A stretch of DNA of 64,000 nt from Verrucomicrobium spinosum DSM 4136 = JCM 18804. GTDB taxonomy: Bacteria > Verrucomicrobiota > Verrucomicrobiia > Verrucomicrobiales > Verrucomicrobiaceae. Of this stretch, positions 5,149 to 44,439 are shown piece by piece. Under the pieces are notes generated by a model, which had not been told where the DNA came from, did not search any database, and worked only from the letters and a program-made list of their open reading frames with translations. Each line of letters begins with the position of its first letter. The stretch's first letter is position 1. The position numbers and the translations under genes are program-made. The DNA lies in NCBI RefSeq assembly GCF_000172155.1, contig NZ_ABIZ01000001.1:1798001-1862000 (forward strand), read 5' to 3'.

Positions 5149-5186
5149 GCTGGCGAAGCGTATGGATTTATTCGATGGCTGTCAAG

Positions 5187-5290
5187 GAGTGATGGAGTGA
5201 TGGAGTGATGGAGTGATGGAGTGATGGAGTGATGGAGTGATGGAGTGATGGAGCGATGGAGCGATGGAGCGATGGAGCGATGGAGCGATG
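5187..5290. repeat. 8-bp minisatellite: 8 x GAGTGATG then 5 x GAGCGATG
   Basis: Thirteen perfect 8-base units lie upstream of the large secreted-protein gene. The first eight carry T at position 4 (5187-5250) and the last five carry C (5251-5290). The clean split into two homogeneous runs suggests recent slippage expansion of two variants. The rest of 5149-5484 contains no gene. Confidence 0.95.
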
Positions 5291-5484
5291 GATGGGGGGC
5301 GCGGTGATGCCATTGGTTAAAGGTAAGTACTTCGCCAGGTGAGAGGGGCGTGCTGGGAGGTTTGGCCGGTGAGCCGACTAAAGTCGGTACTCCAACCCGC
5401 TTCGTTGGAGCTCAAAGGCGGGGAGTGATCAACAAAGCTTGCGCTTTGCAGGTCCCCCGCGCCCGAAACTTCAAGCACCAAGCA

Positions 5485-6102
5485 CTAATCCCCCCCCCTC
5501 CCCACCAACCGTTCCACATGCTCCCTCACGCCCTCCGGCCAGTCGGCCATGAGTTCCGTCATGCGGGAGATGTCGCCGGCATGGAAGGCGCGTGTCACTT
5601 CCTCGAACTGGGGCAGGTCGCCGGCCAGCGCATGGAGGAAGCGGTGCACGGCCTCGGCGGCCTGGCGTTTCCGGTCGCGGTCGGCGTGGGTCTTGCGGGC
5701 GTCTTCCACCAGTTTCCGCAGGGCCACGGAGGCTCCGCCGGACTGTTGATTGAGCCATTCCCAGTGGCGGGGCAGGAGGGTCACCTCGCGGGCCACGACC
5801 CCCATCTTGGGCCGGCCGGGGCCGCGTTTCTCAGCGGTGCTTTCCTCTCCCGCAACTTCGGAGGGAGTTTCGGGAGATACACTGGCCGGGAGGAGACGGT
5901 TGGCGGCATCGGCGGCACTGCCGCGAAAGTCCACCTCCACGATCTGGCTCGTGACATCGTCGAACACCAAAACGGGGCCGACATCGAGACGCGAGGTCCA
6001 GGGGTGGGCTTCCAGGACAACTTCGGAAAGCGGGCCGGTGGCGATGCGTTGATGGCCGGCAAAGGCGATGACGGGTGATTGGGAGTGGAAGCGAGGATCC
6101 AT
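5485..6102 (-). CDS. DUF2239 family protein
   Basis: A 205-residue cytoplasmic protein matching the DUF2239 layout. A beta-rich N-terminal part (about residues 1-70) is followed by a variable linker. Then comes the highly conserved block beginning GRPKMGVVAREVTLLPRHW near residue 95, followed by a Gly-Gly-Ala-Ser-Val-Ala-Leu-Arg motif and a helical C-terminus. The function of the family is not established. The gene is divergent from the FIST-domain gene, and the shared 140-bp upstream region holds two palindromic motifs that could be operator sites. Confidence 0.9.
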   Translation of the reverse strand: MDPRFHSQSPVIAFAGHQRIATGPLSEVVLEAHPWTSRLDVGPVLVFDDVTSQIVEVDFRGSAADAANRLLPASVSPETPSEVAGEESTAEKRGPGRPKMGVVAREVTLLPRHWEWLNQQSGGASVALRKLVEDARKTHADRDRKRQAAEAVHRFLHALAGDLPQFEEVTRAFHAGDISRMTELMADWPEGVREHVERLVGRGGD

Positions 6103-32618: not shown

Positions 32619-33859
32619 CAGGGCTTACGCATCTAAATTTACTCCAAGCAAGGTTTGGAGATAGTCTGTACTGAGTCCGGCTTCGAATCTGCGTTGGTTG
32701 ACCGATTTTTTGGAGTTTGGGTTCTCTCGCTTGATCATTGCATGAGTCAGGCGTCGAAGGGTGGCCAGATTCTCCGCGCTGTAACCTCTTCTAGACCGGC
32801 TCTCATCTTCGCCAAAGGTCACATCTAGAACCCAGTGCAGCGAGTTTTCAATCCCCCAGTGAGCGCGTACTGAGGCTGCAATGAGCGCGGCATCGGCTTT
32901 CAAACTGCTGATGAAGTAACGCCTTTGCACCGTGGTCTGACCCGCCACGGTGCGCTCGCATTCCACCGCAGCCACGCTGCGCAGTCCCGCCCACTTTTCT
33001 GCCCCCTGCAGCCAGCATTCCACTTCCTCACTCACCCAACAGCGACGCACTTCATGCCGGCCGTGCCCATCGCTTTCCTCTTGATGAAAGTTGCCTTCTG
33101 CCCTGGCCAGGTCCTCCCCCGTGTCCAAATAGTGGCTGACCTGTTGATGGAGGCTTTCCTGGTTGCTTTTGAGGGCCAGGATGTAGTCCCCCTTTTGCTG
33201 GATGATTTTCCTGGCCACCTCCCTCTGGCAGCCCATGGCGTCGATGGTCACGATGCAGCCTTTCAACGCCAGCATTTCCAACAACTCCGGCATCGCGCCA
33301 ATCTCATTGCTCTTGTCAGCAACCTTGACCTGTCCAAGGCACAGGCTCAATTCACTGGCCCAAGCCCCCACGATGACCGCAGGTGCCTGCCCTTTGTCGA
33401 CGGCCCCGCGCAGTGCCTTTCCATCAATGGCGATCACCCCTTTGAGACCGCTCTCAAGCCCCTCGCTGGAGAGTTGGCGCAATACACCTTGGGTCCAGAG
33501 ACTGAAGGCTTCCATGAAGCGCTTGGGATCAAGCAGGCTGAAGACTTTACGGAACGTGTCGTGACTGGGAATGCCGTTGGGCAGGGCAAGAAAGCTCTCC
33601 AACCAAGTGCGCTTCAGATTGCCGAAGGCTTCCATATGGGTGTAATGCCCCTGACCGCACAGCATGGCGCAGGTGGCAATCACCAGGATGTCGGCCAGAT
33701 CATGTCGCTGGGTACGCTGCACCCTCCAGTCATCAATGCTCTGAAAAACTTCACGAAGGTTGCTGTCAGGAGATGCAGAGGCGGAAGACATGCCCCACTT
33801 CATTCACACATCTTAACTAATTTCCACGTGCTTTGTAAAAACTAGATGCGTAAGCCCTG
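32619..33859 (-). mobile_element. Complete ISAs1-family insertion sequence (1241 bp)
   Basis: The ends are perfect 17-bp inverted repeats: CAGGGCTTACGCATCTA at 32619-32635 and its complement at 33843-33859. They are flanked by a perfect 10-bp target duplication CTGAACGGAC at 32609-32618 and 33860-33869, in the size range usual for the family. One full-length transposase gene fills it, and its stop codon lies inside the left inverted repeat. Intact ends and duplication mean a fairly recent single insertion between two small accessory genes. Confidence 0.96.
32625..33803 (-). CDS. ISAs1 family transposase
   Basis: A 392-residue DDE transposase (H-repeat-associated protein type). The N-terminal part has DWRVQRTQRHDLADILVIA. 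The catalytic region contains GVIAIDGKALRGA (first Asp), GCIVTIDAMGCQ (second Asp), and HWGIENSLHWVLDVTFGEDESR, which carries the Glu. The C-terminus has ENLATLRRLTHAMIKRE. No frameshift or stop interrupts it, so it is probably functional. Confidence 0.95.
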   Translation of the reverse strand: MKWGMSSASASPDSNLREVFQSIDDWRVQRTQRHDLADILVIATCAMLCGQGHYTHMEAFGNLKRTWLESFLALPNGIPSHDTFRKVFSLLDPKRFMEAFSLWTQGVLRQLSSEGLESGLKGVIAIDGKALRGAVDKGQAPAVIVGAWASELSLCLGQVKVADKSNEIGAMPELLEMLALKGCIVTIDAMGCQREVARKIIQQKGDYILALKSNQESLHQQVSHYLDTGEDLARAEGNFHQEESDGHGRHEVRRCWVSEEVECWLQGAEKWAGLRSVAAVECERTVAGQTTVQRRYFISSLKADAALIAASVRAHWGIENSLHWVLDVTFGEDESRSRRGYSAENLATLRRLTHAMIKRENPNSKKSVNQRRFEAGLSTDYLQTLLGVNLDA

Positions 33860-35150: not shown

Positions 35151-35837
35151 ATGCCCCGCCTTTGCATCAGCGCCGACACCCACGGCAAGCACAGGGATTT
35201 GACCATCCCTGAATGCGACTTGCTGATTCATTGCGGAGACTTCTGCAACATCGGACAGCAAGAACAGGAGACGTTCGAAGACGTTGACGCCTGGTTTGCC
35301 GAGATTCCCGCTGGTCAGATCATTTGTATCGGTGGAAATCACGATGCCCTGCTGCAAAACCGGGAGTTTCGCTTTTCTCAAGCCATCTACCTTGAAGATG
35401 AAGGCATTGAGGTGGGAGGGTTGAAGGTCTATGGATCACCCTGGTGTCCCGACCTCGCAGGATTTGCATTTTATGCTAAAGAGCAGGACTTGATGACGAG
35501 ATGGAGTCAGATCCCTGAAGGCATCGACATCTTGTTGACGCACACGCCCCCGTTTGGAGTATTGGATGTGGCCAGTGCAGGCGATGTCCATCTCGGCTGT
35601 CTGCACTTGCGGAGGGAGGTGGATCGCATTCGCCCGCAGATTCATGCGTTCGGCCACGTGCATGCCAGCAGCGGTGTTTTGACGGAAGGCGGGATCCATT
35701 TTGTGAATGCTGCCGTGGTAGGTGGTCCAGCTGGCAAGGTTAGGAGCAAGCCGGTGAGTGTCGATGTCGTGTGTGCTCGGGGTAGTGTTCAGCTCTCGAA
35801 TCTCCTGCTCGAGAGAGGAGGCGAGGGGAACCGGTGA
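35151..35837 (+). CDS. Calcineurin-like metallophosphoesterase
   Basis: A 228-residue phosphoesterase with all dinuclear metal motifs in order: ADTHG near residue 10, HCGDF near 29, GGNHD near 64, LLTHTPP near 126 and FGHVHAS near 168. Proteins of this short type hydrolyse phosphodiesters or nucleotides; the substrate is not predictable. The TGA stop shares bases with the ATG of the next gene (ATGA at 35837). Confidence 0.9.
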   Translation: MPRLCISADTHGKHRDLTIPECDLLIHCGDFCNIGQQEQETFEDVDAWFAEIPAGQIICIGGNHDALLQNREFRFSQAIYLEDEGIEVGGLKVYGSPWCPDLAGFAFYAKEQDLMTRWSQIPEGIDILLTHTPPFGVLDVASAGDVHLGCLHLRREVDRIRPQIHAFGHVHASSGVLTEGGIHFVNAAVVGGPAGKVRSKPVSVDVVCARGSVQLSNLLLERGGEGNR

Positions 35838-36139
35838 TGTCGATAACGCCTACTCTGGCTACCAACTACGGCAACTTCTACGCATTCCTGACAGGTGTGC
35901 CTGTCATGCTTCTGGTATGCAGCTTGGGTGTTATTGCTCTGGTGTGGAGGCTTCGTGCCTTGGCCGTCATATCGAGGTTGCTGTTTTTTGCGATGACAGT
36001 GTGGTTCCTGGCTTCGCTTGAGGATGCGCGCGAAGTTGACGTGAACGCTACGATTATGGTGGCAATTGTGGCAGCAGGGATGGGATTGACGCTGCTGGTT
36101 TGGAAACGTGCGTCGTCACGAGCAGGCGGCGGAGATTGA
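35837..36139 (+). CDS. Small three-helix membrane protein
   Basis: A 100-residue hydrophobic protein with segments at about 14-35 (FYAFLTGVPVMLLVCSLGVI), 43-60 and 72-90, and a basic C-terminus. Not recognised. The start codon overlaps the metallophosphoesterase stop, so the two are translationally coupled. Its 3' end is 5 bp before the first REP-like doublet. Confidence 0.5.
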   Translation: MSITPTLATNYGNFYAFLTGVPVMLLVCSLGVIALVWRLRALAVISRLLFFAMTVWFLASLEDAREVDVNATIMVAIVAAGMGLTLLVWKRASSRAGGGD

Positions 36140-36143
36140 GCAT

Positions 36144-36250
36144 GTGGCTGCGTTCGTGAGAACGCGGTCAGGCTGGGTGAGTTGGAGGGGCGTGGCGAAA
36201 CATGTCCCTGGATGGCTTGAACGATTCCGCATTCTCACGAATGCAGCCAC
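36144..36250. repeat. REP-like hairpin doublet A
   Basis: Two inverted REP-like units. The left unit has head GTGG and an 8-bp stem CTGCGTTC/GAACGCGG (one wobble pair) with loop GTGA (36144-36167). The right unit, read on the minus strand, has head GTGG and stem CTGCATTC/GAATGCGG (36227-36250). The central 59 bp differ from the later copies B-D. Confidence 0.85.
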
Positions 36251-36669
36251 GACGTCCTCGCTTGTCACCTCTATCCCACCGACAGGCGCTGGGGACGGTG
36301 CCGCTCGAAGGTGGTCACATTGAGGTCGTGAAAGTGGGTTCTCGCGCTCCCTATACGAGGAACGTAGGAAGCAAGTCTTGCTGACCGCCGTGAGTGCGGC
36401 ACAGAGAAGGACAATGCTCTGGCAAAAGAGGCTCGGGTGCAGATTGGCGAGTTGCTGGCTTTACATGAGGGGAGGTCAAGCAACGGTTGGTTGGACGTGA
36501 ATTGACACCGGACGGTGCAGCTCCTCTTTGGTCAGAACAACACAGCCGCAGTTTGAAAAGTTGGAGTATTCCGCGACGGTTACGGTTAAGTTCGAGCTCA
36601 AATAGTCCGGCACATTGCTTGATCCCGGATTCGATTGTTCCGATAAACCTGATGGTGACACGAAGACCA
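36251..36669. other. Intergenic region upstream of the cupin gene
   Basis: No convincing gene. Open frames here lack a recognisable fold and have no plausible start. It may contain degraded array genes and the cupin promoter. Confidence 0.35.
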
Positions 36670-37119
36670 ATGAATTCCATCCAAGGATACCACCTCATTA
36701 CCCCCGCAGACCTCGCCTGGCGTCCTTCCAACCTGATGCGGATTCCGAATGCCGACTACCTGGAACGCACGGGCAGCGAGAACTTGGGAGCGCGGCTCTG
36801 GCGTCTGCCTCCCCAAAGCGCCAACACTCTGCACAAACACGTGCGGACCGAGGAGTTCTACTTTGTGCTGGAGGGAACCGGTCGTATTCGGGTCGGTGAG
36901 GACACTCTCACTGTGCCGAAGCACGGTGGCGTGCTCGTAGGACCAGAAATGCTACGGCAAGTGTTCAATGACACGGACGAAGAGGTGTTGTGGCTCATCG
37001 TAGGCGCGCCTGAACTCGAGCTGGAACCTGATCAGGTGGGCGACATGAGTCTCTATTACCCAGTGGAACCCACCCAGTTGCCTCCTGAACTCGACGGGGT
37101 AAACTGGCCGCCGAAGTAA
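36670..37119 (+). CDS. Cupin domain protein
   Basis: A 149-residue single-domain cupin. The metal-binding motif 1 is readable as LHKHVRTEEFYFVLEGTGRIR, with His, His and Glu in the expected spacing. Motif 2 is LVGPEMLRQVFNDTDEEV, where the usual final His is replaced, so metal binding may be altered. The ATG at 36670 fits; a longer in-frame extension upstream has no domain character. Confidence 0.82.
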   Translation: MNSIQGYHLITPADLAWRPSNLMRIPNADYLERTGSENLGARLWRLPPQSANTLHKHVRTEEFYFVLEGTGRIRVGEDTLTVPKHGGVLVGPEMLRQVFNDTDEEVLWLIVGAPELELEPDQVGDMSLYYPVEPTQLPPELDGVNWPPK

Positions 37120-37216
37120 TTAGCTTGCTACGCTCCCCATCCAGATAACGGCTCCGCCATCGAATTTCTGGATCAGCCATCCGGCTTTCCAATAAGTTGT
37201 ATCTCCTTCCGAGCCC

Positions 37217-37450
37217 ATGAAACCCGATCCACGATCTGTGTATGGCAAAGTCCGCTTCGTCGCGTTTGGCGAGGACTACAAGGTGCGCGTGGTGAGGGTG
37301 GGTGGAGATCTCAGTGTGCGAAGGGTCAGCATGGGGGCTTTTAGCCCTGGCCTGTGGGAGGAGGTGAAACTGGGGGAAGACTTCAGGATTCGTATCGTAA
37401 AGATGGGTGAGGATTTCACGGTGCGCTATGTGCGGCTGGAGGGCGCGTGA
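37217..37450 (+). CDS. Small beta-repeat protein of unknown function
   Basis: A 77-residue basic protein made of short repeating strands: VRFVAFGEDYKVRVVRVGGD and VKLGEDFRIRIVKMGEDFTV repeat a Phe/Leu-Gly-Glu-Asp-x-x-(K/R)-(V/I)-R pattern three to four times. This is reminiscent of short beta-solenoid or DUF6150-like proteins. Not recognised further. It is the last small gene before the REP-like array. Confidence 0.5.
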   Translation: MKPDPRSVYGKVRFVAFGEDYKVRVVRVGGDLSVRRVSMGAFSPGLWEEVKLGEDFRIRIVKMGEDFTVRYVRLEGA

Positions 37451-37491
37451 AGTGCGGGAGGGGGCGGTTGCCAAGACACGGGTGGAACCTT

Positions 37492-37911
37492 GTGGCTGCG
37501 TTCGTGAGAACGCGGTCCGGGAGGGGGAGAGGATGCTATGGCGATGAATAACATTGCGGGGTCGCTTGGGCGATTCCGCATTCTTACGAATGCAGCTACG
37601 AGCAACAAGTTGCGACCTCAGGGGGGCATAGGCGTGGGAGGAAGCTTGTGGCTGCGTTCGTGAGAACGCGGTCCGGGAGGGGAAGAGGATGCCATGGCGA
37701 TGAATAACATTGCGGGGTTGCTTGGGCGATTCCGCATTCTTACGAATGCAGCTACGAGCAACAAGTTGCGACCTCAGGGGGGCATAGGCGTGGGAGGAAG
37801 CTTGTGGCTGCGTTCGTGAGAACGCGGTCCGGGAGGGTGAGAGGATGCCATGGCGCTGAATAACATTGCGGGGTTGCTTGGGCGATTCCGCATTCTTACG
37901 AATGCAACCAC
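37492..37911. repeat. Tandem array of three REP-like doublets (B, C, D; period 156 bp)
   Basis: Doublets at 37492-37599, 37648-37755 and 37804-37911 are nearly identical to each other. Each starts with head GTGG plus an 8-bp stem with GTGA loop. Each ends with the inverted unit (head GTAG in B and C, GTGG in D; stem CTGCATTC/GAATGCGG in B and C, TTGCATTC/GAATGCGG in D; loop GTAA). The spacer between B and C is repeated between C and D, so the true unit is 156 bp. The heads GTAG/GTGG followed by a hairpin are the hallmark of REP sequences mobilised by REP-associated tyrosine transposases. Confidence 0.9.
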
Positions 37912-38051
37912 GAGCTACGAGCTACGAGGTGCGAGCATCAGGCCACGAGCAACCTGCCACAAATCTCGCTCCTCATTGAGCCCGCCGGGAACTTCAAGCT
38001 ACGACACGCCGACCAAACGAAACTTCAAAAACCACCAAGAACCAAGAACCT

Positions 38052-41284: not shown

Positions 41285-41704
41285 TCCAGTGCGCCAGTGG
41301 GCGGTGCGTCAAGGTGTTGGGGCTGGAGTCGTACTTGGTGCGGGTTCCAGCTTCCACAGTGCTGGAGCGGTCAGTATAAGGAGCGAGGGACATTCCTGTC
41401 CCGGGCCCTGAACGTCCTGTCTTGCCTGAATGGTTGTCCGCCCTTTCCAACACCAACGGAGAGGGTTGGAGTTCCGCGTTTACGCGGTGAGGCCGCGCCC
41501 CATCGCATGACTCTACTCGCTGGGGCGGCATTCAGAGGGCGCACGGCAACGCTGAAACTTCAACGACCAACAACTTCCGCAAGCTGTCCGACATACCAAG
41601 TACTCGGGTGCCCCCCCCAACACCTTGACGCACTGCCCACTGACACACTGACGTACTGGCTCAGACGCACCGACGCACTGGCTCAGACGCACCGACGCAC
41701 TGGC
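41285..41704. repeat. Intergenic repeat region with inverted word pair
   Basis: No gene. Bases 41291-41322 and 41612-41645 are inverted copies of the same word (core GTGCGTCAAGGTGTTGGGG), also present near 10124-10155. At 41654-41704 the 21-bp phrase CAGACGCACCGACGCACTGGC is repeated in tandem. Inside lies an AGGGTTGGAGTTCCGCG word shared with the 49.2-kb block. Confidence 0.7.
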
Positions 41705-42652
41705 TCAACCAAGCTTCCGCTTCAGCAGGTAATACAGCGTCTCCAGCCTCCCCACCTCGGCTCCGGCGTTGGCCGCACGGCGGAGGGGCTCACCCCAGAT
41801 GGCGTCGAGCTCGACTTCACGACCTTCTTCGTAGTCGATGAGGCTGCTGGTGCGGTAGCCGCCCATGGCCTTGGTGGATTTGATCATGTCATCCGCCAGG
41901 GAGGAGGGGATCTCGCAGCCCAGCTTGCGCGCGGCTCCGATCACCTCGTGCATGAGGGCGCGGACGAGGTAGGTGAGGGAGTCGTCGGCGAGCATCTGGG
42001 CGGTATCCAGGCCGGTCCGGCCTTCCCCCCCAACGATGGAGAGGCCGTTGAAAGGGATGTTCCACACCAGCTTGCGCCAGCGGGCGGTGGCCAGGCTCTC
42101 CTCCACGTTGCAGACGATGCCGCACCGCTTGAACTCGGAGGCGATCTCATGCGTGCGCGGTTGGGGCCAGCCGGAGTGCTCGCCCAGGGCAATCAGGCCC
42201 TGCGCGAGGTGCTGGATCACCCCTGGCGCGGTGCGGTTGATGCACACGTGGCAGAGGCCGCCCAGCACCCTTTCTGCTCCGTAGTGCCCGGCCAGCAGTT
42301 CCTCGTTTCCCAGGCCGTTTTGCAGCGTGAGCAGCATGGACTTTTCATGCAGGAGCGGCGGGATGATCTCGAGCAGCGCCTCGTTTGAGGTGGTCTTGAG
42401 CGCGATGATGACCAGGTCACACGGGCCGATCTCATCCGCGGTGCGGTGCACCTTGACCCCCTGGAGATGGGCGTCGCCCTGCTTGCTCAGGATCTTTAGG
42501 CCATGGCGTTTCACCTGGTCATAGTCGCTGCGCATGAGGAAGTGCACGTCCCGCCCGTACTGGGCCAGACGACCGCCGTAGTAGCAGCCAACAGCGCCGC
42601 TTCCGACGATGGCGATGCGGTAGTCGGGCAGATGATGATTGAAAAGCGCCAT
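41705..42652 (-). CDS. panE: 2-dehydropantoate 2-reductase
   Basis: A 315-residue ketopantoate reductase (NADPH-dependent step of pantothenate and CoA synthesis). The Rossmann signature IAIVGSGAVGCYYGGRLA is at the N-terminus. The catalytic Lys lies in ARWRKLVWNIPFNGLS, and the motif EGREVELDAIWGEPL closes the C-terminal helical domain. The ATG at 42652 is chosen because an earlier in-frame start adds unlikely sequence. Divergent from the following unknown gene. Other ketoacid reductases of the family are possible. Confidence 0.88.
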   Translation of the reverse strand: MALFNHHLPDYRIAIVGSGAVGCYYGGRLAQYGRDVHFLMRSDYDQVKRHGLKILSKQGDAHLQGVKVHRTADEIGPCDLVIIALKTTSNEALLEIIPPLLHEKSMLLTLQNGLGNEELLAGHYGAERVLGGLCHVCINRTAPGVIQHLAQGLIALGEHSGWPQPRTHEIASEFKRCGIVCNVEESLATARWRKLVWNIPFNGLSIVGGEGRTGLDTAQMLADDSLTYLVRALMHEVIGAARKLGCEIPSSLADDMIKSTKAMGGYRTSSLIDYEEGREVELDAIWGEPLRRAANAGAEVGRLETLYYLLKRKLG

Positions 42653-44269: not shown

Positions 44270-44280
44270 GGACGGTGAAT

Positions 44281-44336
44281 CAGTGCGTCAGTGCGTCAGT
44301 GCGTCAGTGCGTCAGTGCGTCAGTGCGTCAGTGCGT
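44281..44336. repeat. 8-bp minisatellite (CAGTGCGT, seven units)
   Basis: Seven perfect copies of CAGTGCGT follow 11 bp behind the preceding stop codon. The same word with variants occurs at 10110-10130 and 41285-41300. Just after it (about 44357-44373) lies a CCCGGAGGGTTC fragment of the 266-bp inverted-repeat element. Confidence 0.95.
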
Positions 44337-44439
44337 CAGTGTTGCACGTTATGTCATGAACCCGGAGGGTTCGCCATGGGTGCTCCACGCCAACCAACTC
44401 CGTCCCTGATGCTCTCCCAAGGTCCACTGGTTTACCGTT

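Follow-up and report, generated by a model that had tools for sequence, protein, structure and literature searches.

A superfamily of GTAG-tagged REP sequences has been described which includes GTAG-20 of the verrucomicrobium Opitutus terrae, most units of which bear GTGG (Di Nocera et al. 2013, PMC3733652). In Pseudomonas fluorescens SBW25, 457 of the doublet clusters tabulated consist of one doublet each, and no ordered cluster contains more than four REPINs (Bertels and Rainey 2011, PMC3116915). Cleavage by TnpA-REP enzymes takes place at CT next to the REP (PMC8266576). Against this background we analysed a stretch of 64,000 nucleotides of Verrucomicrobium spinosum, hereafter the window (C1:1798001-1862000 of the source genome G000, 8,220,857 bp in a single contig). 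The four hairpin doublets found in it are very probably REPINs, that is, inverted pairs of GTRG-headed REP units which were spread by a RAYT and then grew in tandem in place.

The features of the window, with positions counted from its first letter, are the following.

36144-36250, no strand: REPIN doublet A, units 36144-36167 (+) and 36227-36250 (-), heads outward
36144-36167, plus strand: left REP unit of doublet A, GTGG-CTGCGTTC-GTGA-GAACGCGG
36227-36250, minus strand: right REP unit of doublet A, GTGG-CTGCATTC-GTGA-GAATGCGG
37480-37947, no strand: tandem array of three 156-bp units (doublet plus 48-nt spacer), in neither congener G001 nor G003
37492-37599, no strand: REPIN doublet B, units 37492-37515 (+) and 37576-37599 (-)
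37600-37647, no strand: spacer B-C, 48 nt, locus-specific, probably captured flanking DNA
37648-37755, no strand: REPIN doublet C, units 37648-37671 (+) and 37732-37755 (-)
37756-37803, no strand: spacer C-D, 48 nt, same sequence as spacer B-C
37804-37911, no strand: REPIN doublet D, units 37804-37827 (+) and 37888-37911 (-)
5186-5292, 44280-44341 and 41627-41707: other tandem repeats of the window, two of octamers (GGAGTGAT, 13 copies; TCAGTGCG, 8 copies) and one of 22 bp
32625-33803, minus strand: 392-aa ORF, by eye from its sequence like an ISAs1-type transposase

The initial annotation had placed the ends of all four doublets exactly to the base, and the layout that it described, inverted pairs of units with a GTRG head, an imperfect 8-bp stem and a GTGA or GTAA loop, is seen in each of them. 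A window unit consists of GTRG, an 8-nt stem, a GTRA loop and a further 8-nt stem, the stem being imperfect because it contains a T-G pair, and a doublet is formed by two facing units with heads outward, about 107-108 bp from end to end. Doublet A starts 4 nt past the stop codon of the ORF at 35834-36139. The last three doublets follow one another with a period of exactly 156 bp, as had been noted; array copies are 97% and 83% identical to the first copy in a repeat search of the window, and TRF gives 2.8 copies with 96% matches. The window has 21 matches to the core GTRG-N8-GTRA where 4.3 are expected (at most 10 in 100 shuffles), and 8 of these 21 matches are the units of doublets A-D. Folded as single-stranded DNA, a single unit gives an 8-bp hairpin and the doublets give one long hairpin (z = -5.1, -5.9 and -2.5); the arrangement that characterizes REPINs, two inverted REPs in one single-stranded hairpin, is found in the folds and in the 123 doublets mapped in the genome.

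The units are dispersed in high copy number, as in GTAG-type REPs. The pattern of the left-type unit (up to 3 mismatches) has 224 matches in the genome and none in the reversed control, and the right-type unit has 278 against 0, in a set that overlaps the former. The 123 doublets were mapped by pattern searches and in 27 regions, and their number is a lower bound, with further right-type loci outside these regions; 116 of them stand in tandem arrays (loci with at least two doublets), whose periods are locus-specific and mostly about 129-156 bp. The largest array, at 4554 kb, has 17 doublets. Adjoining it is a stretch of about 115 bp (about G000 C1:4556930-4557060; locus L104, about 5430-5560), dozens of copies of which, about 76-83% identical, occur in G000, G001 and G003; this dispersed repeat has no Rfam match, and its RNA fold is not unusual.

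In a set of 61 distinct units picked without a pairing filter, 95% of stem cells are paired, with compensatory changes, and stem pairs 1, 4, 5, 6 and 8 covary, the observed pairing exceeding the maximum of 1000 column shuffles. An unpaired GTAG/GTRG tag stands at one end of the palindrome; with GT-N-G required at selection, the heads are GTGG in 44 units, GTAG in 15 and GTCG in 2. In most doublets, one unit is of the GCGTT type and the other of the GCAYT type. The bases before the head are also conserved across unrelated loci, with T at position -2 in 60 of 70 locus-side contexts and C or T at -1 in 66, so that a short flank ending in TC or TT (typically GCTC, GCTT or CAGTC) belongs to the unit, and the element extends past the head at which its boundary had been drawn. 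Inspection by eye showed no covariation of the third head base with the two bases before it, of the kind that the guide model of PMC8266576 has.

It had been proposed that no transposase of the REP-associated kind is encoded in the window and that the source lies elsewhere in the genome. None of the Y1-transposase matches of the genome falls inside C1:1798001-1862000, and a 201-aa RAYT-like gene with HUH and Tyr motifs is found at C1:4876698-4877303, embedded in doublets of the same family. Arrays lie on both sides of it, with five doublets and one unit upstream and three doublets downstream, and it is the only one among 30 Y1 loci (1.5-kb flanks) to lie amid these units; it is thereby flanked by cognate REPs, as is typical of a RAYT. 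Its best NCBIfam model is NF047646 REP_Tyr_transpos (1.8e-16); the score of 60 bits is below the 80-bit cut-off, which counts against the main explanation and points to a divergent member. The gene matches PF01797 above the cut-off, the nearest PDB structure to the profile of the RAYT and its relatives is E. coli TnpArep (4er8, 2e-9), and neither the HxH nor the Tyr motif varies, which together place it in the Y1 HUH REP-associated class. Also counted against the main explanation is that the units flanking the RAYT are a sister variant, with CTGCGTTT/ATGCATTC stems versus CTGCGTTC/CTGCATTC in the window. GTAG hairpins, with stems of their own, are also a recurrent neighbour of the relatives of the RAYT in other Verrucomicrobia and in neighbouring phyla.

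A second RAYT-like gene of the same genome, at C1:1666909-1667259, is surrounded by arrays (C1:1666071-1668303) of a second REP family (GTAGGGCAAGCG...; GTAGGGCAAGCGCCCCGCTTGCC), which has 168 matches (84 + 84, up to 3 mismatches) against 0 in the control. Both window loci look intergenic and the REPtron lies between two genes, a statement that covers these loci only.

The proposal that the doublets are REP/BIME-type sequences is supported by the hundreds of copies and by the RAYT amid units of the same family; the units have copies far beyond the window locus. Mobilization by the RAYT at C1:4876698-4877303 is what we infer from these associations. REPINs would then be non-autonomous single-strand elements: the RAYT would recognize head and hairpin on single-stranded DNA and cut beside the hairpin, the doublet would be copied to intergenic sites, and the landed doublet, with a bit of flanking DNA, would develop into a tandem array in place, most simply via slippage or unequal recombination between copies.

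Comparison with the two congeners reveals lineage-specific presence of the doublets and growth of their number in place. Doublet A is an old insertion that is decaying in the relatives: G001 has an orthologous doublet whose right arm has decayed, and G003 retains a remnant. At nine other loci, the rough counts of doublets in G000/G001/G003 are 4/4/0, 5/2/0, 4/0/0, 4/1/0, 9/0/0, 7/1/0, 17/2/0, 6/2/0 and 3/0/0. Some sites are filled in G000 and empty in G003 or G001, and at 3075 kb G003 retains an apparent decayed unit. At two sites G001 carries a single doublet and G000 four and seven respectively, which indicates growth in place; doublets would thus appear to insert singly and then to multiply in place into tandem arrays. 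It should be noted that the automatic three-way alignment at 2221 kb is poor, and exact target sites or target duplications are not claimed. The REPtron site measures about 115 bp in G003, which has no REPtron, versus about 2 kb in G000, and in G001 both contigs end inside arrays. The G001 assembly contains many REPs but no RAYT, its contigs breaking in the REPtron-site arrays, and this we count against the main explanation.

At the site of the window array, G001 and G003 have a common segment of about 400 bp instead of the array. A clean empty site was sought in these two genomes, and the segment hides the insertion junction, which is likewise counted against. Outside itself, the array is matched best in the genome by doublet A, which lies at a distance of 1.3 kb (78%, E = 4.7e-17; next 5e-10), and doublet A of G001 is about 77-79% identical to the array copies, which makes a local origin from the A type likely; the array is likely a lineage-specific derivative.

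The cause of tandem growth can be approached from the spacers and flanks. Spacers are mostly private to one locus, the window array included. The outer flanks of several arrays match spacer ends, in 17 of 17 nt on the left at 2221 kb and in 13 of 13 and 18 of 18 nt at 3644 kb, as expected if flanking DNA was duplicated along with the doublet, and at 2221 kb a piece of the spacer-matching flank already borders the single G001 copy. Within an array, the interiors of the doublets have 93% identity, and from one array to another 61% (58% for shuffled sequence). One could suppose that the RAYT itself makes the tandems, by excising single-stranded circles or multimers of doublet plus spacer and reinserting them beside a copy or at new sites, so that arrays move as arrays. 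The arrays at 1276, 1360, 4875/4877 and 5122 kb speak for this: they have interior and spacer in common, so more than the bare doublet has moved at least sometimes, and BLAST matches between them cover several whole repeats. Of 231 spacer pairs, 20 lie above the 99.9% shuffle level. Dispersal of several units at once, the RAYT arrays included, therefore seems also to occur. As a general account, however, it has against it the private spacers of most arrays, the flank-spacer matches, which fit a duplicated host flank, and the flank piece beside the G001 copy, and we consider it rather unlikely. The stronger version, in which the mobile unit is the array itself (doublet plus spacer), which the RAYT would cut out and insert in multimeric form, with arrays seeding arrays at new sites rather than single doublets spreading and slipping later, deserves still less credence. 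We favour growth by slippage or unequal recombination, with RAYT-made multimers as the principal alternative.

The hairpins might instead be mainly intrinsic terminators or RNA stabilizers selected after genes, their mobility being past and of little current effect; the position of doublet A just behind a stop codon and the insertions that adjoin terminator-like hairpins, as at 3644 kb, would fit. This is improbable, since the number of doublets at one site varies from 0 to about 17 between congeners, up to 17 doublets per array exceed any terminator need, the GTRG head is conserved though needless for a terminator, and an Rfam search of the window locus matched no family; a terminator-only reading is rejected on the heads and copy numbers. 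As for an ordinary local inverted or tandem repeat unrelated to REPs, or chance, the local 156-bp tandem would fit and nothing more, and the hundreds of genome copies against none in the control, the compensatory stems and the RAYT association leave it practically no probability. The 3644-kb site has, in both congeners, a terminator-like hairpin (L294 448-471 in G003; L295 reversed 499-522 in G001); its core, CGCGTTCGTGAGAGCGCGG, is similar to the stem and loop of a REP but lacks the GTRG head.

With regard to significance, the V. spinosum system is a REPIN-RAYT pair from outside Proteobacteria that seems not to have been described before. Three congeneric genomes with zero, one or many doublets at the same sites make the stages of single insertion, amplification in place and decay directly readable, and two RAYTs in one genome, each amid its own REP family, offer a natural test of RAYT-REP specificity.

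Tandem REPIN clusters with flanks, RAYT-adjacent clusters and GTGG-tagged REPs of Verrucomicrobia are already described (PMC3116915, PMC3733652), so that the kind is known and only the member is new. As in the GTAG-REP superfamily and GTAG-20, in the accessible part of PMC3733652, the units combine an unpaired GTAG/GTGG tag with a short palindrome, occur in Verrucomicrobia, and form head-outward dimers 20-100 bp apart and tandems with segments of flanking DNA; they may differ from GTAG-20 in that their stem and GNNA-type loop sequences appear to be their own. The word "spinosum" has no occurrence in the same part of the text. The SBW25 REPINs (PMC3116915) are likewise inverted REP pairs that form one long hairpin, with ordered tandem clusters that include flanking sequence and with clusters beside RAYT genes, but here 116 of 123 mapped doublets are in tandem arrays, one of them of 17 doublets. 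The E. coli TnpA-REP/BIME system is similar in the HUH-Tyr transposase (profile match to 4er8) and in REP pairs of alternating orientation, and the CT or TC directly before many heads would be compatible with TnpA-REP cleavage at CT (PMC8266576). E. coli REPs require a stem bulge, whereas the units described here have a nearly perfect 8-bp stem and are nearer to group 3 REPs (PMC8266576). Taken together, the V. spinosum units are a further case of the GTAG-REP/REPIN-RAYT system, with an unusually strong bias towards tandem arrays.
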